A DNA stretch of 64,000 nt from Candidatus Peribacteraceae bacterium (lineage in GTDB: Bacteria > Patescibacteriota > Gracilibacteria > Peribacterales > Peribacteraceae): the NCBI GenBank assembly GCA_018061945.1, contig JAGOTD010000001.1, positions 1 to 64,000 on the forward strand, written 5' to 3'. Positions within the stretch are counted from its first letter, which is position 1; the number at the start of each line of letters is the position of its first letter. Of this stretch, positions 51,224 through 62,519 are shown in pieces. The translations under genes were made by a program, and so were the position numbers. A model generated the notes under the pieces. It had not been told where the DNA came from, made no database searches, and saw only the letters and a program-made list of their open reading frames with translations.

Positions 51224-51389
51224 AGGAAGCGCATGCTAGCAAGGACAAAGCAGTTTGCGCAATACAACAATACAAGAGTCTATCAAGGTTATGAGCAACA
51301 CTAAGGGAACAAATCCACTATCTTCACTTATTTACAACGACACCGTATTGGAAGCTCTTATTTATAAATACAATACATGCTCATTCACC

Positions 51390-51420
51390 AAAAAATCCCC
51401 CATACAATTTGCATGGGGAA
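51390..51420 (-). terminator. Intrinsic terminator after the 173-residue gene
   Basis: On the minus strand TCCCCAT and ATGGGGGA pair around a 9-base loop, followed by TTTTTT. It lies 17 bases after the stop at 51437. Confidence 0.8.
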
Positions 51421-51436
51421 TTCTCTCAAATAATTT

Positions 51437-51958
51437 TTAGTAGGCGACGATATCTAGAGAGGTAGCATCTTCTATCGATGTATCTAGAGCAATAGGCCCC
51501 TTTGGCATAGGTTTAGGCATATTTTTTTCCAAACAATCATGTAAGGCATCATCTGCTGCATTGAACGCAATTTCAGCATTAAACCATGCATCAATTGCAG
51601 CACTTAGCGCCTCGCTACTTTTGGATAAATCAGCACTCATTCTTTCGAGTTCTTTCACTCGTTCCTCCAATTTTGCAGGATCACCCTTCGTAAGATTGGT
51701 AAGTGCTTCATCCACTAATTTTCTCAGTGTATCATTTTCTTTCCGTGCTTTATTCATTGCCTCTTCTGCAGCTTTAACAGCCTTTTGAGCAGCATCGAAA
51801 GATTTTTGTTCTTTTTCGCATGGGTTAACAGCTTTTTTCTGCCCATCCTCAACAGTAACCGCCGTATCAATTTCCTCTGCGTGTAGAACCGAAACTACCG
51901 ATGTCATACACAGGAATATAACGAGGAATGGTGCAATTTTAAGAGAAAAATGAGACAT
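51437..51958 (-). CDS. Secreted helical protein with two terminal cysteines
   Basis: 173 residues. A signal peptide ends near VLHA/E (residue 28). The mature part begins with NPCEKEQ and ends with HDCLEKN, the only two cysteines. Between them lie about 105 residues of coiled-coil-like helix (KAVKAAEEAMNKARKE, LEERVKELERM) broken by a GDPAK turn. So it looks like a helical hairpin that a disulfide could close. The four genes upstream have the same plan. A TATAGT box and a leader of CCTCCCCCCTTTTTT precede the ATG. Function unknown. Confidence 0.75.
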   Translation of the reverse strand: MSHFSLKIAPFLVIFLCMTSVVSVLHAEEIDTAVTVEDGQKKAVNPCEKEQKSFDAAQKAVKAAEEAMNKARKENDTLRKLVDEALTNLTKGDPAKLEERVKELERMSADLSKSSEALSAAIDAWFNAEIAFNAADDALHDCLEKNMPKPMPKGPIALDTSIEDATSLDIVAY

Positions 51959-52049
51959 AAAAAAGGGGGGAGGTAAAGTAACTATAATTTATATTAAAAC
52001 ATACTTTATTAAAATATACAATATATTTAACTACAAATTTAAATGTATT

Positions 52050-52085
52050 CAAGCACTCCCCGCTCCAAATGAGCGAGGAGTGCTT
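52050..52085 (-). terminator. Hairpin AAGCACTCC...GGAGTGCTT
   Basis: A 15-base stem with a short loop, 15 bases after the stop at 52100. It has no long T-run. A near copy is at 53658. Confidence 0.65.
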
Positions 52086-52099
52086 CAATTACAAGAATA

Positions 52100-52591
52100 C
52101 TAACTATGGATACAAGCAATGTAAGTATTCCATGCGTTTTTTTCATCAAGTGTTGCTTGTGCAAATGCCAAAGCTGCGTTGTCTTGTGCAATTTTCGCTG
52201 CATTAGTTGCAGCGATTGCTGCGTTCATTGCCGCAAAGGTGGTATCTCTTGCATTTACCCACTCAGCTCTCGTGTTATACGGATAATACATATTATTTTG
52301 CTGTATAGGGCGCACTAATGGTATCCCTTTAATAATTTGGTAATTTTGCACAGCTTGTGCCTCATCCTTTTGTGCATTTTTTAAAGAATTCCTTGCATCC
52401 TTGTAAGCTTTTTCCGCTGCTATAACTGCATACATTGCACCCATAAATGAATCAAGTTCATCACTACAATCTGGTTCGTCGCCGCCTCCTGTTGGAGGAT
52501 CTGCGTATGTTGTAGGAACAAATGCAGTGGCAGAAGGTAATAAAATCATGATGCTCATCGTGAGCGATACCAATTTTTTTCTACTATTCAT
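52100..52591 (-). CDS. Secreted helical two-cysteine protein, paralogue A
   Basis: 163 residues. The signal peptide ends near TTYA/D (residue 31), then PTGGGDEPDCS holds the first cysteine. The end is YIACIHS. In between are two alanine-rich helices joined by a loop with YYPYNTRAEW. The first 43 codons are the same as those of the gene at 53708 apart from one silent base; the mature part is homologous but mostly different. It lies 32 bases after the 159-residue gene and is probably in one operon with it. Function unknown. Confidence 0.78.
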   Translation of the reverse strand: MNSRKKLVSLTMSIMILLPSATAFVPTTYADPPTGGGDEPDCSDELDSFMGAMYAVIAAEKAYKDARNSLKNAQKDEAQAVQNYQIIKGIPLVRPIQQNNMYYPYNTRAEWVNARDTTFAAMNAAIAATNAAKIAQDNAALAFAQATLDEKNAWNTYIACIHS

Positions 52592-53127
52592 TGTTGGAAA
52601 GAGAAAAGAAATAAAAAAAGAAACTACGCAGCCATACAGACGTCGTAGTCTTCCAATGCCCCATCTAAGGCATCGTAATCAATTGTCTCATACAGAGCAT
52701 CCCATGACGATTGAAGTGATGCGACTGATCCAGACATCGTAGCGTGAGAGACAAAATTTGCACTGGCAACACTATTCGTAGACGAAGCAAGAGATTGAGT
52801 GCTACTAGTGGCAATTTCACTACCAGTAGCAGTAGCATAAAATGTCTCGAGCATATCTGATGTGTCTTCGATAATAGTAGCCATGCTGCTACGCAAAGAA
52901 TAAATTGAGCCAGACAAAGTAGCCATACTAGAGTCGATACCATTGAGCGACGAGTAGGCTGCCTCTACGGCTGCCCATTCGGTGGTGCAGTCGTTTGTGC
53001 CGTGTGCTGTGGGCGGTTGATACGCGGTGGTGATACCAGTGACGGCAAGAATGCCGGCAAGTATCAATCCCGATTTCTTTCTGACGGAGAAGGAATGGAG
53101 CATAGAACAGGAAAGGAAAAAGTAATT
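52462..53127. repeat. 666-bp segmental duplication, copy 1
   Basis: It matches 54064-54729 with one difference that I could see (T at 52538, C at 54140). It covers the leader and all of the 159-residue gene, the 32-base gap, and the first 43 codons of the next gene. Homology stops sharply on both sides. Confidence 0.95.
52624..53103 (-). CDS. Secreted helical two-cysteine protein, duplicate of 54226
   Basis: 159 residues. The signal peptide ends near HG/TNDC or slightly before. The first cysteine is in TNDCTTEW and the second in DYDVCMAA. The mature part is helix-prone and rich in Ser, Ala and Thr. The protein is identical to the one at 54226. The -10 box differs (TATAGT, 53133-53138, against TATACT for the other copy), so the two copies may be expressed at different levels. 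Function unknown. Confidence 0.78.
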   Translation of the reverse strand: MLHSFSVRKKSGLILAGILAVTGITTAYQPPTAHGTNDCTTEWAAVEAAYSSLNGIDSSMATLSGSIYSLRSSMATIIEDTSDMLETFYATATGSEIATSSTQSLASSTNSVASANFVSHATMSGSVASLQSSWDALYETIDYDALDGALEDYDVCMAA

Positions 53128-53261
53128 CCTTTACTATATTCGCTTCATGCAGATTAACGATTGTCAGAGCAGTAAATAAAATATTTACTAGCACAATGGC
53201 AAGAATTATTCCTTGTTTATCGAATATTATATTTGCCTACTTTTATTTTAGACACTATTTT

Positions 53262-53492
53262 TTACAGCTGTGTTGTAAATATCCTATCGCCGGATATGGC
53301 CTGACCATCCTGTGCATTTTTGGAGATAATGCGATAATGGTACAGCATATTTGGCAAGAGCCTCATTATTGTCTGGGCATGGTCGAGCTGGAGTGTAGCG
53401 TCGAATGATGTCGATGATCCGTACGACATTGTTGTTCCGTATTCGATGAGTGAATCACTTGGCTCATCGGTGGACCACTTTACAAACTCTGT
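53262..53492 (-). pseudogene. Remnant of a giant adhesin gene, last fibronectin-like repeat
   Basis: The minus strand reads KWSTDEPSDSLIEYGTTMSY, then later LPNMLYHYRIISKNA and ends RIFTTQL and a stop. This matches the last repeat of the giant protein at 54860 (SWSTNEQTDAMVEYGLTTAY, LTPNTLYHYRVVSKDA, QTFTTLP). The frame is closed by a TGA just upstream, near 53493-53495, and no start or signal exists. So it is a decayed 3' end of a second giant gene, in the same place relative to the 159-residue gene as the intact copy. Confidence 0.8.
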
Positions 53493-53494
53493 TC

Positions 53495-53657
53495 AAACTA
53501 TTTCGAATTTTGCATGATAAATCTTCGCAAGATTGGTCAAACTTCATCCAATGCCTTCCGAATACCTCTATCTTCTTTTTACGCTTTATTCTATGTCTCT
53601 CTGTAGCATTTAGAACTTTTTTGTACCAAGGAATTATATGATAACTTTACGTCTACC
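53495..53657. other. Degraded region upstream of the adhesin remnant
   Basis: AT-rich, with many stops in all frames. On the minus strand it could hold more decayed coding sequence from the lost giant gene, but I cannot align it by eye. Confidence 0.35.
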
Positions 53658-53694
53658 CAAGCACTCCCCGCTCCAAATGGGCGGGGAATACTTG
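53658..53694 (-). terminator. Hairpin CAAGCACTCCCCGC...GCGGGGAATACTTG
   Basis: A near copy of the hairpin at 52050, 13 bases after the stop at 53708. The stem is about 14 bases with small mismatches. Confidence 0.65.
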
Positions 53695-53707
53695 AGTTAC
53701 ACGCATG

Positions 53708-54193
53708 CTAACTATTGAGGCAGGCTATGACATCTGCATATGCTAGATGTGCAGCTTGCTGTGCACGTGCTAATAAAACTGATTTATCTATTTCTTCTTT
53801 CTGTGCGGCACGTTTTGCCGCTATTGCTGTAGCATGTGCAACTTTCGCCGCGTCTCTTGCTACGATCCATGCAGCCCTATTGGCATAAGGACTATATGGA
53901 GCACTCGGACTTCCAGCACTCGGTATTAATGTTATTAAACGTAGCGCCGTAAAAGTGGCAGCTTCATCTTTTTCCGCAGCTCTAGCAGCCTGGCGTGCAA
54001 CGTTGGCAGCGGTAGCTGCTACTTTTACCTGCGCTGCTAAAGCAGCCCACAACAATATTTCAGCACTACAATCTGGTTCGTCGCCGCCTCCTGTTGGAGG
54101 ATCTGCGTATGTTGTAGGAACAAATGCAGTGGCAGAAGGCAATAAAATCATGATGCTCATCGTGAGCGATACCAATTTTTTTCTACTATTCAT
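53708..54193 (-). CDS. Secreted helical two-cysteine protein, paralogue B
   Basis: 161 residues. It has the same signal peptide and first cysteine as the gene at 52100 (DEPDCS), then departs: AEILLWAALAAQVKVAATAA and two Ala/Arg/Lys-rich helices around a loop with YSPYANRAAW. It ends VIACLNS. The loop and end positions match those of paralogue A, so the fold is shared while the surface has changed. It lies 32 bases after the 159-residue gene at 54226. Function unknown. Confidence 0.78.
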   Translation of the reverse strand: MNSRKKLVSLTMSIMILLPSATAFVPTTYADPPTGGGDEPDCSAEILLWAALAAQVKVAATAANVARQAARAAEKDEAATFTALRLITLIPSAGSPSAPYSPYANRAAWIVARDAAKVAHATAIAAKRAAQKEEIDKSVLLARAQQAAHLAYADVIACLNS

Positions 54194-54729
54194 TGTTGGA
54201 AAGAGAAAAGAAATAAAAAAAGAAACTACGCAGCCATACAGACGTCGTAGTCTTCCAATGCCCCATCTAAGGCATCGTAATCAATTGTCTCATACAGAGC
54301 ATCCCATGACGATTGAAGTGATGCGACTGATCCAGACATCGTAGCGTGAGAGACAAAATTTGCACTGGCAACACTATTCGTAGACGAAGCAAGAGATTGA
54401 GTGCTACTAGTGGCAATTTCACTACCAGTAGCAGTAGCATAAAATGTCTCGAGCATATCTGATGTGTCTTCGATAATAGTAGCCATGCTGCTACGCAAAG
54501 AATAAATTGAGCCAGACAAAGTAGCCATACTAGAGTCGATACCATTGAGCGACGAGTAGGCTGCCTCTACGGCTGCCCATTCGGTGGTGCAGTCGTTTGT
54601 GCCGTGTGCTGTGGGCGGTTGATACGCGGTGGTGATACCAGTGACGGCAAGAATGCCGGCAAGTATCAATCCCGATTTCTTTCTGACGGAGAAGGAATGG
54701 AGCATAGAACAGGAAAGGAAAAAGTAATT
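54064..54729. repeat. 666-bp segmental duplication, copy 2
   Basis: The partner of 52462-53127, offset by 1602 bases. See that entry for content. Confidence 0.95.
54226..54705 (-). CDS. Secreted helical two-cysteine protein, duplicate of 52624
   Basis: 159 residues, identical to the product at 52624: signal peptide, Cys in TNDCTTEW, a Ser/Ala/Thr-rich helical body (TLSGSIYSLRSSMATI, SVASLQSSWDALYE) and Cys in DYDVCMAA. It lies 154 bases after the giant prepilin-adhesin gene on the same strand, with its own TATACT box (54735-54740) and a CU leader (CTTTTTCCTTTCCTGTTCT). It could be a partner of the giant protein. Function unknown. Confidence 0.78.
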   Translation of the reverse strand: MLHSFSVRKKSGLILAGILAVTGITTAYQPPTAHGTNDCTTEWAAVEAAYSSLNGIDSSMATLSGSIYSLRSSMATIIEDTSDMLETFYATATGSEIATSSTQSLASSTNSVASANFVSHATMSGSVASLQSSWDALYETIDYDALDGALEDYDVCMAA

Positions 54730-54734
54730 TTTAA

Positions 54735-54740
54735 AGTATA
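54735..54740 (-). promoter_or_regulatory. -10 box TATACT for the 159-residue gene, copy 2
   Basis: It lies just outside the duplicated block, 29 bases before the ATG at 54705. In copy 1 the same place has TATAGT (53133-53138). Confidence 0.5.
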
Positions 54741-54859
54741 CTTTTTTCTCATGTATTTGCGATTGTAGGCACGTTCAAAAAGATTGCCGATGAGCGAAAG
54801 GGAAGAATGTTTACTTGATGAAAATGCTGAAATGCCGGTATATCAATTTTCAATTTTTC

Positions 54860-57800
54860 CTACGGCAACGTCGTAAACGTCTGGTCTTCCGAGACCGTCT
54901 GTCCGCCGTTTGCGTCTTTGGACACGACACGGTAGTGATACAACGTATTAGGTGTGAGTGGCGTTAAGAGTTCGGAGTGATCTATGCTCAGCGTCGCATT
55001 GAGTGCTGTAGACGAACCGTAGGCAGTCGTGAGTCCGTATTCGACCATCGCGTCTGTCTGCTCATTGGTAGACCAGGAGATAGCTGCATTGGTTTGCCCG
55101 ATAGGCGAAGCAGAAACAGAATTGATAATCGGCGGTGCGTTGATGGTCGTAAAATCGTAATCAATAGAAATGTTCTGATTGCCGGATTTATCACTGGTTT
55201 TAATACGATAGTGATAGGTTGTCAGTTCGCTCAGCGGCGAGACGGCTACTACATGCGCTGTTACAAGCGCAGGATCGAGGATAGTCGTAAGGCCATAGGC
55301 ATTCGTAAGGCCGTATTCGATTTGCGACGTTGCCGGTTCATCGGTGGAAAATACCAGTCGCGCACCAGTGCCGGTAATCGTAAGTGGTGCAACCGCCGAG
55401 ATAACCGGCGGAACGAAATCCAGTATATAATTTGGCGAAATGCCAAGATTGCCCGACGCATCGCGCGAGCGAACGCGGAATTGATAGAGCGAATTGGGCT
55501 GGGGAACGGTCACTGTTTGGGTGTGCGTTGTGACCAAATTCGAATCGAGCGCAGTGGTATTGCCATACGCAGTTGTCACTCCCCATTCAATTTGCGAATT
55601 GGAAATCTCGTTCGTTGTCCAGGTAACGGTTGCAAGAGTCGGAGCGGTTGTCACCGAGTCGACTGTCAGGAATACCGGAGAGGTTGTATCGGGTGTCGTG
55701 AAGCTTCGGTTATTGGACATGCCAAGATTGCCGGTAATATCTTTTGATTTGACGCGATACTGATACGTCGTATTGGGCGCCAGTCCGACAATTGTCACAC
55801 TATGCCCAGCAGTGTAAGCAGTCGGCAGCGTCGTCGATGTACCATACGCGGTGGTTGGACCGTATTCCACCTGGCTGTCGGCATTTTCGTTGGTATCCCA
55901 GGAGATAATGGCCGTCGTATCCGTGAGCGGACCGGACACAAGGCTGAAAACGGCTGGCGGCGTAATATCGGCTTGTGTTGTGAACGTATATGTCTGCGTC
56001 GACACACCTGTATTTTGTGCCAAGTCGGTTGATCGTACGCGGAAATAGTAGAGGGTACTGCCAGTCAGATTCGACAGGTTCATGCTGTGATTTGTGACCG
56101 ATGTCGTCGGAAGAGTAGTCGACAAACCGAGAGCGGACGTAAGTCCGTACTCCACTTGGCTGTCGCTCAATTCATCGGTGAGCCAGGTGATAACCGCTGT
56201 GCTGGCAGTAATGCTTCCGACGTTGATGGAGAAGAATTGCGGCGGAGTTGAGTCGCTGGTTAAGAAGGTACGATCGGTTGTGGTGGTCAAATTACCCGCG
56301 CTGTCGCGGGACTTGATACGATAATGATACTCGGTATTTCCCTGCAGGCCCGTAATGGTTTGTAAGTGATTCACCTGGAGTGAGGAGTCCAGTGTTGTCG
56401 ATGTTCCGTAGTTTGTCGTTGTACCGTACTCCACCTGCGAATCGGCTGTCTCGTTGGTAACCCAGCTCACACTCTGGCTGCTGTCTGACACATTTCTTGA
56501 CACAATGGATGAAATAATCGGCGCAGTGGTGTCAGGTGTCGTGAAGACGAAGTCGGTTGAATACCCGATATTGGCGGCGCCATCGACGGATTTGACGCGG
56601 AAATGATAGGTAGTATTCGACGTAAGTCCGGTGAGCGTCTGGCTATGGCTTGTGACCAACGCAGCATCAACCGTATTGCTGAATTCATAAGGAGGAACGG
56701 CACTGGTCGGATCGTACTGGATTTGGGATGTTGACGCCTTGTTTGTCGTCCACGTAATGCGCACGGAGGTATCAGTAAGAATCGTTGCCACAACAGACGA
56801 GAAAATCGGCGGCTGTGTATCGAGAGTGGTAAATGAACTCCCCGTCGATAGTCCCAAGTTACTGGCTGTATCCTGGGAACGAGCACGCAAGAAATACTGC
56901 GTATTCGGCGTCAATCCTGTAAGGAAAATGCTATGACCACTCGACATAATCGGGTTAATTGTCGTCTGCGTACCGTAACTGGTAGTAAGTCCATATTCCA
57001 CCTGCGAATCGGCTACTTCATTGGTTGTCCATGTCACGAGCGCCGATGTACCAGTGATGGCCGAAACAGTAGTCGCAGAGAGAATAGGCTCCGCCGTATC
57101 AGAAATCGTAAAGACGCCGTCGCCGGAAATAGTCAGATTACCGGCCAGATCTTTCGTTTTAACGCGATAATGATATTGCTGTGCCGGCACAATGCCCAAA
57201 ACAGTCACCGAGTGACTGGTAACACCCGTCGCATCGGCAGGCACCGTAGGGTAGAAAGATCCATAGGCGGTTGTCGGGCCGTATTCCACCTGCGAATCGG
57301 ATGCCTCATTGGTTGTCCAGGTAATGGCGACGCTGTTTTGCCCTGCCAGTGAAGAGGTTGGTCCCGTCTGAATGGACGGCGCAGTGACATCGGTCGAGAA
57401 TGTCGCATCCGGACCGACGACCGTATTGCCGAACCGATCTTTGCTGGTGACACGGTAATGATAGGTGTTGTTAGGAGACAGGTTGGAGAAAATGGCAATG
57501 CTATGGGGATTGGCAACCTGCGTACTATTGATGACGGAGTATCCGTACGCCGTTGTCAGACCATATTCAACTTTGGTGTCGGACCTCTCGCTCGTACTCC
57601 AATTGATGATACAGCTGGTGCCCGTAATATTGGAGGCAGACGACGGCACAGTAATGGTCGGAGGAATGGTATCAAAGATCCAACCGCGCGATGGCGTCAT
57701 ATTTGTTGAGGCATCAGCGGATTTCAGCCGGAAATGATACGTATTACCCGGCGTCACTGCAATCGGCAGTGAGCGACTAAAGACCAATGCCGGATCTGGA

Positions 57801-60800
57801 GAGGCTGGAGAAAAAGTGCCGTAGGAAGGCGTTAGGCCATATTCCACCTGCGAATTGGCGATTTCAGATGTGTTCCATGTCACTGTCGCGGTGGTACCTG
57901 CTGTGTCGACGAGTACGCCTGTTGCGCTGTAGATCGGTGCGACAAAATCACCCGAAGTTGCAAACGAATAAGGTCCGTACGTTGCGGTATTCCCTACTCC
58001 ATCACGCTGCGTAATGGTGTACTGATAACTGGTTGCCGGCCTAAGACTGCTCAGCGACACTGAATGAGACGAGATGAGGTTCGCTCCCGATATCGCCCAC
58101 AGATTGATGAGACCACCACTGCCGTACTTCACTCTATCGGTCGATGGCTCATCGGTTGTCCAGGTGATGGTGGCAGCATTTGCCGTTGCCACAACGCTCG
58201 GACCGACTGTAATGACAGGAGCATCGGTATCCCAATTGCCAGTGCGTGCGGCAAGTCCGGCAGCCGTCGCGTCATCAATGGCATAGTTATACACACGGAA
58301 TTCATCAAGATATCCCCCAAAGAAACTGCTCGTTCCCATGCTGCTAGCAGCATATTGGCCAATAGCAAAATAGAACGTTGTTGTTCCATTGGTCCATGGA
58401 GTTGCACGCGAGACGCCGTTTAACGGAGCGGATTTCACGCTGTTTAAGAAGCCGTCGAGCCTGCTTGCGGTTTTGTCGTAGCGCACGATCGCATGATTCC
58501 AGTTATTAAAGTTGGCACCCCCCAGCGTAATCGGCGTCAAATTCCAGACGCGCGCTTTGACGACACCGGCTGGAGATACTTCCAACTGGCTGTTACGCCA
58601 GTAGTTTGGATCTCCATTTTCCTGCACGATAACACCGGCAGTAGTAGGATAAAACCAAATGGAAAACGAGATCGAATCATCGCGTATGTAGGGTCGCAGA
58701 TCGGGTGTGGCCATCGAGTGAGTGGTTCCGTTGAGCTGCATACTCTTTACGTTGCCCGATGCAATGGGAGCACGAATGGAAGCGGAGTTTCCAGGTGAAT
58801 TTGCTTTCGCCCCATTCAATGCGTATGGTCCGTTGTCCAGTGCCACAGAGGCGCTTGGTTCGTCGAGTTGCCATTGACCGATCATCCCTGCTACCACCGG
58901 ATTGAGAGTGGTAAACGAACCAGTGTATGTTGATACGTTTTCCGCAGCATCCCTCGAGGTAATGCGATAGTAGTAGGTAGTCGCCGGACTGAGTCCGGTT
59001 ATAAGCGGAACAGAATGATTCGCTTGATAACTGGTGATCGTGTTGACAGTAAGGCCATACGAGGTTGTTGGTCCATAATCCACTTTATCCAGTGTCTGCT
59101 CACTTGTACTCCACTGCACGGTCGCCGATGAATTGGTAATATTCACAACTGCTGGACTACTGATGACCGGAGGCGTGACATCGATGGCAACGTTACTCGC
59201 TGCAGCCGCCTGAATTTCGGCTTGCGACAGAACTTTATTGTAAAAACGCAGATCATCTATTTTTCCTGCAAACGAACTCGGTGAGCCGGTCACGGCTCCT
59301 CCCAGCACAGGATCGATGGAGTTAACGACATTGTATGATGTTCCGCTCGCCCGCAGCGTTCCATTCACATATATTTTTCGCAAGCTCGCATCTTGCGTGA
59401 CAGCAACATGCTGCCATGCGCCGGGGGTAAGATTTCCGTAGAGCATTGCTCCGCCATAGCTATTAAATTGCCATTGGTTGTTTCCGTTAATACCCAGATA
59501 CCATGTGTTAAATCCGCCATAAGTACCACGAGTCACCACTGCCCTCCAGCCTGATGGAGTGGCAGGGACGTACGCCCACAGCATGATGGTTGTCGGTTGC
59601 GATGTACTGAAAATTGTATTACTCAGATTGCCGAAAGAAGCATAGTTCGTTGTGCCATTAAAACTGATGCTACGCACGTTTGGCAACGCAGACGTTGTCG
59701 GCGGCAGACTGGTGTCTATGGACGTGCCACTTACGAGGGCGCCATTTTGCGCATTGCCACCAGAATCGCTGGCCACCGTTCCACTTGTTTCATCGAATTT
59801 CCAGTAATAGATAAGATTGGGAAATGGCGGTGTAACGGTTGAAAAGGTCGCAGTCGTTGAAGCTGATTGATAGCCGTGTGATTCGCGCGACAGTACGCGG
59901 AAATTATAGGTCGTCCCGACTGTCAGACCTGTGACCCACATCGCATGCGATGTGACATAGGCTGAATCTAACGCCGTTTGTGAACTAAAACTTAGGTCAG
60001 TACTGTAGACTACTTGTGAGGTGGAAGGCACATCGGTTGTCCACGTGATGAGCGTTTTCCACTGCGTTGTCGCTGCGCCCGAAGCAGTGACCGTACTTAT
60101 GACCGGGAAAAAGCTTTTGGCAGAGAAAGTATAGTTAGTCGATGACAGCACGTTACCGGCACTATCGCGGGATTTCAGCTGATAATTGTACGTGGCGCTT
60201 GGTGTAAGATTGATCAATTTCTGCGAGTGAGTGGTGACATACGCGCCGCTGAAGGTTGTTGCATTGCTGTAGGCTGTGGTAAATCCATAGAGGATTTGTG
60301 TCGTTGACGGCTCGTCGGTTGTCCAGGTGATGACAGCCGATGTTCCGGTGTTCTGGGTGATGACAGGACCGCCAGTAATAACCGGCGCAACGACATCGAC
60401 AGTCGTAAATGTCAGATCGTTCGATAGCGCCATATTTCCCAGCGCGTCGGCAGTGCGAATGCGATAATGATAGAGCGTATTCACCGTTAAAGACGAAAGA
60501 ACAATCGTGTGCGTTGTCACACCTTGCGGATCGGCGGGAATAAACGGTTGGCGCGGTCCGTAGCTGGCAGTTATTCCGTAATCAATTTGAGAGTCGGCGT
60601 TTTCGTCGGTCGTCCAAGTAATGGTGGCACTGGTACCGTCGGTACTGACAGCACTGATGTTGGAAATAACGGGCGGCACCGAGTCGCGAGTTGCAAAGGA
60701 ATACTCGGGCGACGTGGTGAGATTTCCAGCCGCGTCGCGCGAAAGAACGATGTAGTAATACGTCGTTTGCGGAACAAGTCCCAGCATCTGAATGGAATGC

Positions 60801-62353
60801 TCTTCCACAAATGATCCGTTGACCGGCGTCTGGCTTGTATAGTTCCCACTCGTCGTTCCCCACTTTACTTGTGCAGTAGTCAACTCATCCATGGTCCAGG
60901 AAATAAGCGCACTGGTGCCGGTAAGATTCGCTGTCACGGAATTTGGTCCGCTCACAATACTCGGTGACGTGTTGTCGTTCGTTGTAAACGAAAAATCTCC
61001 CGACTGAGCGGCATTGTCCGATTCATCACTGGAAATAACCCGGAAGTGATACAGCTGGTTGGGCGATAATCCGTTGATGGTGATGGAGTGTCCTGTACCG
61101 TAGACGCTCGTTGGCGCACTAGGCACCACCAGACCATACGCAGTTGTCGATCCGTATTCCACCTGGCTGTTTGCGTCTTCGTCGGTATCCCACGTAATGG
61201 TGGCAGAAATACCATTCGTACTGACAGACGTGATGTTCGAAAGAATCGGCGGAACGGTATCGACCAGAGTGGTGAAAGTTGCATCATCGGACATTCCCAT
61301 GTTGCCAGCTGAATCGCGCGACAGCACACGGTAATGGTACAGAGTGCTTCCCTTAAGTCCGGTGAGCGGCATTAAATGTGCCAGGTGCAGAGTCTCATTG
61401 AGAGGCGTTACTTTTTCGTACGCCAACGTTTTGCCATATTCGACCTGGCTCGTGGCCGGCTCATCAGTATTCCACGTAATGTACGCGGCATTGTAAGACA
61501 GTCCGGATGGAATGACCGCGGAAATATACGGCGGTGTTGTGTCGAGAGTGGTAAACGAACCACCTGCATCGACTGCATACAAGTTGCCCGCCGGATCAAT
61601 TGCCCGTACGCGAATATAGTAGGTGGTACTCTGGGTCAATCCACGGATCACCACGGAGTGAGAGAGTGACAACGTTTCGGTAAACGCCGTATTGTTATCG
61701 TATTCGCGAGAGTTTCCATACAACACCTGCACGTAGGCAGGTTCATCGGTAAAGAATGTAATCGTCGCCTCATCACCGGTCACATTGATCATGTTGATAT
61801 TCAAAATGTCGGGCGCGAGTGTATCTGCCAGACAATGATCGAGCGGCAATCCTTCGCCAGCACCATGACCTAAATTGGAGATAGTCACAATAATGCGCTC
61901 TGTCGGATCTTTGTATAAACCGTAGCCAGAATACGACCTACAAGGCTCAGCCGGATCATTCAGATTTTTAAGCGAAATATACTCACTCAAAGAAAACGAA
62001 CCAATGGGATAACAGCTGCTATCGCGTGTTCCGATTGCCTCTTTGCAGATAGCAGTCGGATTGAGTGGATCTGTCGAAATCGTCTGTTGTTTTGGGATGG
62101 CATTATGATCCAACTGATACGCCTGAAAAGCATTTTGCAACTGACGTGCGTACGTCTGTCGCTGCACATTGTACGTCGCCACCAGAATGTTTTTCGGCCC
62201 GATGAGCGCGATACTCGCCGCCGACACGGCACCGACGACACCGATTGCGATAACCAACTCGACTAACGTAAACGCATGGCGTTCGCGCTTGCGGCGATGA
62301 CCGTGCTTTTTTTTGTGCCGAAGCGGATGCTGTGGGTGTGAGTGCCTGGTCAT
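54860..62353 (-). CDS. Giant prepilin-like adhesin with 20 fibronectin-like repeats and two LamG-like domains
   Basis: 2497 residues. A basic, His-rich lead of about 25 residues ends in HAFTLVELVIAIGVVGAVSA, a type IV prepilin site (cleavage before F, Glu at +5) and helix. A pseudopilin-like part with four cysteines runs to about residue 190. Then come 20 repeats of about 95 residues with the core ITWTTDEPSTSQVEYG, as in fibronectin III or the N-terminal domain of purple acid phosphatases. Two LamG-like jelly rolls interrupt them (YYWKFDETSGTVASDSGG near residue 850 and GQWQLDEPSASVALDNG near 1150). The start at 62353 is chosen because the upstream ATG lies inside the -10 box. Likely a surface or pilus-tip adhesin. 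Confidence 0.9.
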   Translation of the reverse strand: MTRHSHPQHPLRHKKKHGHRRKRERHAFTLVELVIAIGVVGAVSAASIALIGPKNILVATYNVQRQTYARQLQNAFQAYQLDHNAIPKQQTISTDPLNPTAICKEAIGTRDSSCYPIGSFSLSEYISLKNLNDPAEPCRSYSGYGLYKDPTERIIVTISNLGHGAGEGLPLDHCLADTLAPDILNINMINVTGDEATITFFTDEPAYVQVLYGNSREYDNNTAFTETLSLSHSVVIRGLTQSTTYYIRVRAIDPAGNLYAVDAGGSFTTLDTTPPYISAVIPSGLSYNAAYITWNTDEPATSQVEYGKTLAYEKVTPLNETLHLAHLMPLTGLKGSTLYHYRVLSRDSAGNMGMSDDATFTTLVDTVPPILSNITSVSTNGISATITWDTDEDANSQVEYGSTTAYGLVVPSAPTSVYGTGHSITINGLSPNQLYHFRVISSDESDNAAQSGDFSFTTNDNTSPSIVSGPNSVTANLTGTSALISWTMDELTTAQVKWGTTSGNYTSQTPVNGSFVEEHSIQMLGLVPQTTYYYIVLSRDAAGNLTTSPEYSFATRDSVPPVISNISAVSTDGTSATITWTTDENADSQIDYGITASYGPRQPFIPADPQGVTTHTIVLSSLTVNTLYHYRIRTADALGNMALSNDLTFTTVDVVAPVITGGPVITQNTGTSAVITWTTDEPSTTQILYGFTTAYSNATTFSGAYVTTHSQKLINLTPSATYNYQLKSRDSAGNVLSSTNYTFSAKSFFPVISTVTASGAATTQWKTLITWTTDVPSTSQVVYSTDLSFSSQTALDSAYVTSHAMWVTGLTVGTTYNFRVLSRESHGYQSASTTATFSTVTPPFPNLIYYWKFDETSGTVASDSGGNAQNGALVSGTSIDTSLPPTTSALPNVRSISFNGTTNYASFGNLSNTIFSTSQPTTIMLWAYVPATPSGWRAVVTRGTYGGFNTWYLGINGNNQWQFNSYGGAMLYGNLTPGAWQHVAVTQDASLRKIYVNGTLRASGTSYNVVNSIDPVLGGAVTGSPSSFAGKIDDLRFYNKVLSQAEIQAAAASNVAIDVTPPVISSPAVVNITNSSATVQWSTSEQTLDKVDYGPTTSYGLTVNTITSYQANHSVPLITGLSPATTYYYRITSRDAAENVSTYTGSFTTLNPVVAGMIGQWQLDEPSASVALDNGPYALNGAKANSPGNSASIRAPIASGNVKSMQLNGTTHSMATPDLRPYIRDDSISFSIWFYPTTAGVIVQENGDPNYWRNSQLEVSPAGVVKARVWNLTPITLGGANFNNWNHAIVRYDKTASRLDGFLNSVKSAPLNGVSRATPWTNGTTTFYFAIGQYAASSMGTSSFFGGYLDEFRVYNYAIDDATAAGLAARTGNWDTDAPVITVGPSVVATANAATITWTTDEPSTDRVKYGSGGLINLWAISGANLISSHSVSLSSLRPATSYQYTITQRDGVGNTATYGPYSFATSGDFVAPIYSATGVLVDTAGTTATVTWNTSEIANSQVEYGLTPSYGTFSPASPDPALVFSRSLPIAVTPGNTYHFRLKSADASTNMTPSRGWIFDTIPPTITVPSSASNITGTSCIINWSTSERSDTKVEYGLTTAYGYSVINSTQVANPHSIAIFSNLSPNNTYHYRVTSKDRFGNTVVGPDATFSTDVTAPSIQTGPTSSLAGQNSVAITWTTNEASDSQVEYGPTTAYGSFYPTVPADATGVTSHSVTVLGIVPAQQYHYRVKTKDLAGNLTISGDGVFTISDTAEPILSATTVSAITGTSALVTWTTNEVADSQVEYGLTTSYGTQTTINPIMSSGHSIFLTGLTPNTQYFLRARSQDTASNLGLSTGSSFTTLDTQPPIFSSVVATILTDTSVRITWTTNKASTSQIQYDPTSAVPPYEFSNTVDAALVTSHSQTLTGLTSNTTYHFRVKSVDGAANIGYSTDFVFTTPDTTAPIISSIVSRNVSDSSQSVSWVTNETADSQVEYGTTTNYGTSTTLDSSLQVNHLQTITGLQGNTEYHYRIKSRDSAGNLTTTTDRTFLTSDSTPPQFFSINVGSITASTAVITWLTDELSDSQVEYGLTSALGLSTTLPTTSVTNHSMNLSNLTGSTLYYFRVRSTDLAQNTGVSTQTYTFTTQADITPPAVFSLVSGPLTDTTAIISWDTNENADSQVEYGPTTAYGTSTTLPTAYTAGHSVTIVGLAPNTTYQYRVKSKDITGNLGMSNNRSFTTPDTTSPVFLTVDSVTTAPTLATVTWTTNEISNSQIEWGVTTAYGNTTALDSNLVTTHTQTVTVPQPNSLYQFRVRSRDASGNLGISPNYILDFVPPVISAVAPLTITGTGARLVFSTDEPATSQIEYGLTNAYGLTTILDPALVTAHVVAVSPLSELTTYHYRIKTSDKSGNQNISIDYDFTTINAPPIINSVSASPIGQTNAAISWSTNEQTDAMVEYGLTTAYGSSTALNATLSIDHSELLTPLTPNTLYHYRVVSKDANGGQTVSEDQTFTTLP

Positions 62354-62373
62354 AATCACAAAATTTTCTTTAC

Positions 62374-62382
62374 AGTATAGCA
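62374..62382 (-). promoter_or_regulatory. Extended -10 box TGCTATACT for the giant adhesin gene
   Basis: It ends 20 bases before the ATG at 62353 and overlaps the start of the longer ORF. Confidence 0.65.
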
Positions 62383-62519
62383 TATATTACCTCTGATTGT
62401 TGACATAATTGTTCTATAAAGTACTATTATTAATTTTCGTCAATATTACAAAGGTGTAAGGAGGAGGGCAGTTGTACGTCTTAAGATATATATCTTTTTT
62501 CTCTTTCTTCTGTATTTTT

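Follow-up and report, generated by a model that had tools for sequence, protein, structure and literature searches.

In the window, i.e., the whole 64,000-nucleotide stretch of DNA that we analyzed, we identified an orphan copy of the last fibronectin-like repeat of a neighboring giant gene, and this orphan is probably the relic of an old tandem duplication in which a 671-bp tract was later copied between the two duplicated units. The intact and decayed elements of the array are listed in Table 1; in the direction of transcription, they are the intact giant gene, a 159-aa gene, the helical gene h161, a hairpin, a dead third gene, a dead giant tail, a second 159-aa gene, the helical gene h163, a second hairpin, and an intact third gene.

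Table 1. Elements of the duplicated array and their positions in the window
Feature	Position	Strand	Remarks
Intact giant gene (2507 aa)	54860-62383	-	last repeat at 54860-55087
Near-identical tract, unit 1 copy	54059-54729	.	671 bp, 2 mismatches
159-aa gene, unit 1	54226-54705	-	protein identical to other copy
h161, helical secreted-looking gene, unit 1	53708-54193	-	first 43 codons inside identical tract
Hairpin, unit 1	53655-53690	-	-34.5 kcal/mol for 53645-53700, z -7.7; similar to 52050-52086
Third small gene remnant (173-aa type)	53488-53648	-	core 53503-53621 matches 51666-51786; frameshifted, without start and 3′ part
Abrupt junction of third-gene remnant and orphan repeat (approximate)	53478-53488	-	third-gene similarity reaches junction; repeat similarity begins at W codon
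Orphan repeat (dead), copied from the final fibronectin-like repeat of the giant and including the stop codon	53262-53486	-	tblastn, genome search, tree
Near-identical tract, unit 2 copy	52457-53127	.	671 bp, 2 mismatches
159-aa gene, unit 2	52624-53103	-	protein identical to unit 1 copy
h163, helical gene, unit 2	52100-52591	-	
Hairpin, unit 2	52050-52086	-	-32.9 kcal/mol for 52040-52095, z -8.7
Intact third small gene (173 aa), unit 2	51437-51958	-	relatives follow helical gene at second locus, both genomes

The last fibronectin-like repeat and its stop, which an earlier, sequence-only reading had described, can be read directly on the minus strand, where translation of 53262-53486 gives FVKWSTDEPSDSLIEYGTTMSYGSSTSFDATLQLDHAQTIMRLLPNMLYHYRIISKNAQDGQAISGDRIFTTQL followed by a stop codon (53262-53264) in the same place as in the terminal repeats. 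A tblastn search with the giant protein (P0001) against positions 53200-53720 aligned 71 ungapped residues at 52% identity (E 1e-26); the best match was the giant's own last repeat (residues 2435-2505), with all other giant repeats scoring below it, confirming that the orphan matches the end of the giant. The alignment goes well past the conserved W..DE..YG core, beyond which that reading had allowed that nothing significant might align, and it is specific to the terminal repeat. Of 74 residues, the orphan shares 37 with the terminal repeat of the neighboring 2507-aa giant and, as its closer match, 51 with that of the syntenic giant in a same-genus relative. Of the extent originally proposed, 53262-53492, the repeat and stop stand, but the homology ends near 53477-53486 and not at 53492. 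Our search of 59 whole genomes (the window's own, one same-genus genome, and relatives from the family and class) found any match to the orphan in 13; the best non-self match was the last repeat of the same-genus syntenic giant (72%, E 2e-33) and the second best was the last repeat of the window's giant (52%, E 2e-24), with the remainder weaker.

Examination of the adjoining sequence demonstrated that the rest of the giant gene is missing beside the orphan, i.e., no preceding repeat is present and an in-frame stop lies just upstream. The orphan frame contains in-frame stops upstream, its first start codon does not occur before mid-repeat, and disabling changes are present in the neighboring frame. 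The single orphan repeat scores 22 bits against the Pfam fibronectin-like domain PF16656 (E 0.00024), below the curated cut-off of 30 bits. Since this region lacks a start and the remainder of the gene, and since near-invariant repeat positions are changed, we assume that it has no product and infer that it is a pseudogene relic.

The intact giant scores 404.8 against PF16656 as a whole protein, and contains fibronectin-like repeats, two laminin-G-like domains, and a weak prepilin-type motif below Pfam's cut-off; it is probably a cell-surface protein. Giant residues about 811-1620, including both laminin-G-like domains, are only 39-41% identical to the same-genus giant, with flanks that are 70-71% identical, and this divergent middle may reflect module exchange or fast evolution of a binding region.

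The orphan sits before a 159-aa gene just as the intact giant sits before the other copy, as had been claimed, with a stop-to-gene spacing of 158 nt vs 154 nt. Alignment of unit 1 (53655-55085) with unit 2 (52050-53487) in 75-bp blocks showed homology that is collinear over the tail, spacer, 159-aa gene, helical gene, and hairpin. Block identity is 0.56-0.60 in the giant tail and 0.51-0.59 in the spacer, rises to 0.99-1.00 over the 159-aa gene and the first part of the helical gene, falls to 0.36-0.56 farther along the latter, and is 0.65-0.82 over its end and the hairpin, with one block of 0.80 that straddles the tract edge. Homology of the spacer is barely above shuffles (score of 140 vs a maximum of 134 in 500 shuffles). 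The duplicated unit as first described (giant end, 159-residue gene, helical gene, and hairpin) is therefore borne out by this collinearity but incomplete, since a third small gene also belonged to it. The two hairpins, which are located between the helical and third genes, are very stable, lack an obvious T run, and might act as partial terminators or as ends that protect the mRNA; another hairpin, which does have a T run, follows the third gene at 51375-51435.

The third gene was identified in the stretch between 53495 and 53700, which the sequence-only reading had singled out as a place to look for further giant remnants; we found none there, and the stretch is instead a remnant of the third small gene. 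Alignment of the remnant core with the 173-aa gene scored 287, with 0 of 1000 dinucleotide shuffles as good (maximum, 227), and an ungapped 49-bp piece of the remnant has an E of 1.5e-5 in the whole window. The remnant contains frameshifts, stops, and several indels; comparison of spacing indicates that ~230 bp of the start region are missing after the hairpin, and nothing is present past about codon 106, where the orphan repeat begins. At a second locus, three small genes occur in both the window's genome and the relative's in the order 159-type, helical, and 173-type, and this order, together with a decayed 173-aa-type gene at the relative's giant locus, identifies the 173-aa gene as the third gene of the operon. 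A third gene was probably located behind the giant before the lineages split. Alignments of the remnant with the relative's decayed third gene and with the two second-locus copies were equaled by 508, 444, and 181 of 1000 shuffles, and because these alignments are not above shuffles, the remnant is not datable with those copies.

Analysis of the near-identical tract demonstrated that it spans the 159-aa gene and codons 1-43 of the helical gene and is 99.7% identical between units, with flanks diverged to about 36-60% identity; such sharp-bordered identity within a diverged duplicated unit is what a gene-conversion tract leaves. Our results thus only partly agree with the proposal that the small genes were kept nearly identical: this holds for the 159-aa gene, with its identical protein, but not for the helical genes, which have 31% protein identity beyond codon 43. 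Selection to keep genes intact was considered as the cause of the identity contrast and rejected, since both helical genes are intact yet diverged to this level. As near-identity is confined to one sharp-bordered tract that is diverged on both sides, we conclude that the tract was homogenized long after the duplication, the simplest process being gene conversion or some comparable recent transfer from one unit to the other; the identity could in part reflect assembly.

The duplication itself appears to be old, as judged by the divergence of the tail, the third-gene remnant, and the helical genes, with the identical tract arising later. Among 72 residues aligned across the three tails (the orphan plus each giant's terminal repeat), 35 are shared by all; at 17 the orphan alone is different, at 16 the tail of the window's giant alone, at 2 the relative alone, and at 2 all three differ. 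At third positions, the two window tails differ from each other by 0.64 and from the relative by 0.46-0.51; differences to the relative are 0.34-0.56 in five neighboring genes and 0.57-0.60 in the conserved flanks of the giant. Compared with these neighbors, the third-position differences of the tails suggest that the duplication has an age similar to or greater than that of the split from the same-genus relative, an order of events that is based on one comparison, between two genomes of the genus. Of 9 genomes searched, 3 contained a match to a 319-aa neighbor; the two from outside the genus were 26% identical, too distant for a relative-rate test. This locus is a clean example of identity between small tandem genes giving the wrong age for a duplication.

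Based on these findings, we propose that a unit containing the giant end, 159-aa gene, helical gene, hairpin, and third (173-aa type) gene would have been duplicated in tandem at about the time that the same-genus relative split off, or earlier. Long after, the tract comprising the 159-aa gene and the helical gene's signal-peptide end would have been copied from unit to unit, which would make the array look recent. The second giant copy may once have been longer than its last repeat, with a deletion fusing its tail to the third-gene remnant, and this is the course toward which we lean slightly. Consequently, the sequence-only reading of a second giant gene that has decayed is supported as far as a giant tail in the right place is concerned, and a whole second giant gene is possible.

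A simpler history, in which only a partial tandem duplication occurred, with one breakpoint where the giant's last repeat begins and the other midway through the third gene, is a serious contender that we nevertheless rate below even chances. The orphan would then never have been part of a second giant, but would have begun as the end of a chimera between the 5′ part of the third gene and the last repeat. This single step accounts for the abrupt junction and for the absence of both the giant body and the 3′ part of the third gene, and yields the same map with one event fewer; furthermore, no other giant repeat was found in the array. Against this, a codon model of the three tails gave an omega of 0.22 on the orphan branch vs 0.10 on the others, and an omega of 1 on the orphan branch was rejected (LRT of 5.66, reached by 1 of 120 simulated replicates), i.e., the neutral evolution over the whole branch that marks a pseudogene was not found. 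Either the orphan lost its function late, or its shortness misleads the test. These values come from 72 codons with near-saturated synonymous sites, and one omega for all branches was not rejected (lnL -639.67 vs -638.89). The tail also contains 0 indels in 226 aligned columns, compared to several in the third-gene remnant, and seems to have been protected for longer. Together, the omega result and this contrast in indels suggest that the tail was long part of a working gene and died after the third-gene remnant, which favors a longer second giant gene that was removed by deletion.

The relationship of the three tails was also examined in a tree of 41 repeats, i.e., 40 from both giants and the orphan. 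Repeats of one giant mostly have a single counterpart in the other, and the two terminal repeats form one clade with the orphan (support of 100/98), within which the orphan pairs with the tail of the relative (97/82). This pairing is what would be expected if the orphan were the original tail of the giant, with the present tail and the 159-h161 unit having been recombined in from a diverged copy, cutting the orphan off; the orphan is also no more diverged from the relative than the present tail is (51/74 and 54/75, respectively). We consider such a displacement improbable, as the grouping is not significant by AU test, the other two pairings of the three tails not being rejected (p of 0.35 and 0.38). 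In addition, at most of the sites that set the present tail apart, the orphan's residue tends to recur in the other repeats, which points to changes in the present tail and not to a foreign origin, and the divergence of the present tail from the relative is typical for the giant. As the AU tests reject neither alternative pairing, the tree does not settle whether the duplication came before or after the species split. Although fibronectin-like repeats are common in the window's genome, a chance or convergent sequence unrelated to the end of this giant is scarcely conceivable given terminal-repeat-specific matches in two genomes, a clade supported at 100/98, and the same position before a 159-aa gene.

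It is very doubtful, if conceivable, that the array serves as a small recombination reservoir for the surface-protein locus, with the orphan-type tail being exchangeable with the tail of the expressed giant. If this were so, the 159-aa gene and signal peptide would be homogenized, and the mature helical proteins and the giant tail would be kept variant; the closest relative of the orphan-type tail is located on the giant that the sister species expresses. A silent-cassette antigenic variation system would have several donor cassettes and transfer into the expressed gene; here, the array contains one orphan tail only, and the 159-aa tract shows a recent transfer but the tail of the giant does not.

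The same three small genes are located at the second locus at L029 7082-8723 and L030 6640-8135 (minus strand), where orthologues are only 29-36% identical, compared to mostly above 70% for genes beside the giant locus, indicating that these secreted-looking proteins evolve very fast, yet keep two cysteines. All 10 of the 10 mature small proteins examined from the two loci, with signal-peptide cysteines set aside, contain one cysteine near either end, an arrangement that would suit a disulphide-closed helical hairpin. The 159-aa protein is modeled as all helical, at low confidence (mean pLDDT of 58.7 with 3 sequences), and the 159-aa family is present in 2 of the 59 genomes. In the relative, the second-locus operon lies directly behind a gene encoding a 1516-aa laminin-G-like surface protein (L030 8795-13345, minus strand), and this large gene is absent beside the operon in the window's genome. 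The locus also links a giant surface protein of an uncultured lineage with three small, secreted-looking proteins that evolve rapidly.

The one same-genus genome compared, a Candidatus Peregrinibacteria MAG (CALMES010000105.1), contains an orthologous giant that is about 61% identical, in the same gene order and with the same downstream neighbors. Right behind this giant is the decayed, frameshifted 173-aa-type gene (L034 2860-3156, minus strand), which begins within about 10 bp of the stop of the giant, as if the 159-aa and helical genes had been removed by deletion, and is followed by a 246-aa gene. Unlike the array in the window, this locus contains no duplication and no orphan tail, and 159-aa and helical genes are not here but elsewhere on the same contig. 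The region after the relative's giant showed no similarity to the window spacer (157 of 500 shuffles as good), and the giants in two further genera (n = 2) have no recognizable small genes of this kind behind them.

Among the matches listed for Peregrinibacteria fibronectin type III and for Patescibacteria giant adhesins or gene conversion, none concerned this locus by title. One study describes concerted evolution in prokaryotes, with tandem paralogues homogenized by gene conversion (PMC6053082), and as here, copies within a genome are far more alike than their surroundings or the relatives in other species; that case is long-lasting and in a core pathway, whereas ours is a short tract in a lineage-restricted small secreted gene beside decayed neighbors. 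A second study describes giant surface-protein gene clusters of fructophilic lactic acid bacteria shaped by intragenic recombination (PMC12863079), which likewise involve very large surface-protein genes and recombination, but the proteins are unrelated, and several intact giants are present there compared to a stump with small operon genes here. Apart from its two-age signature, the array is a case of ordinary duplication, decay, and homogenization; these processes are already known in tandem surface-protein genes, and this locus is a new instance of them and not a new kind.
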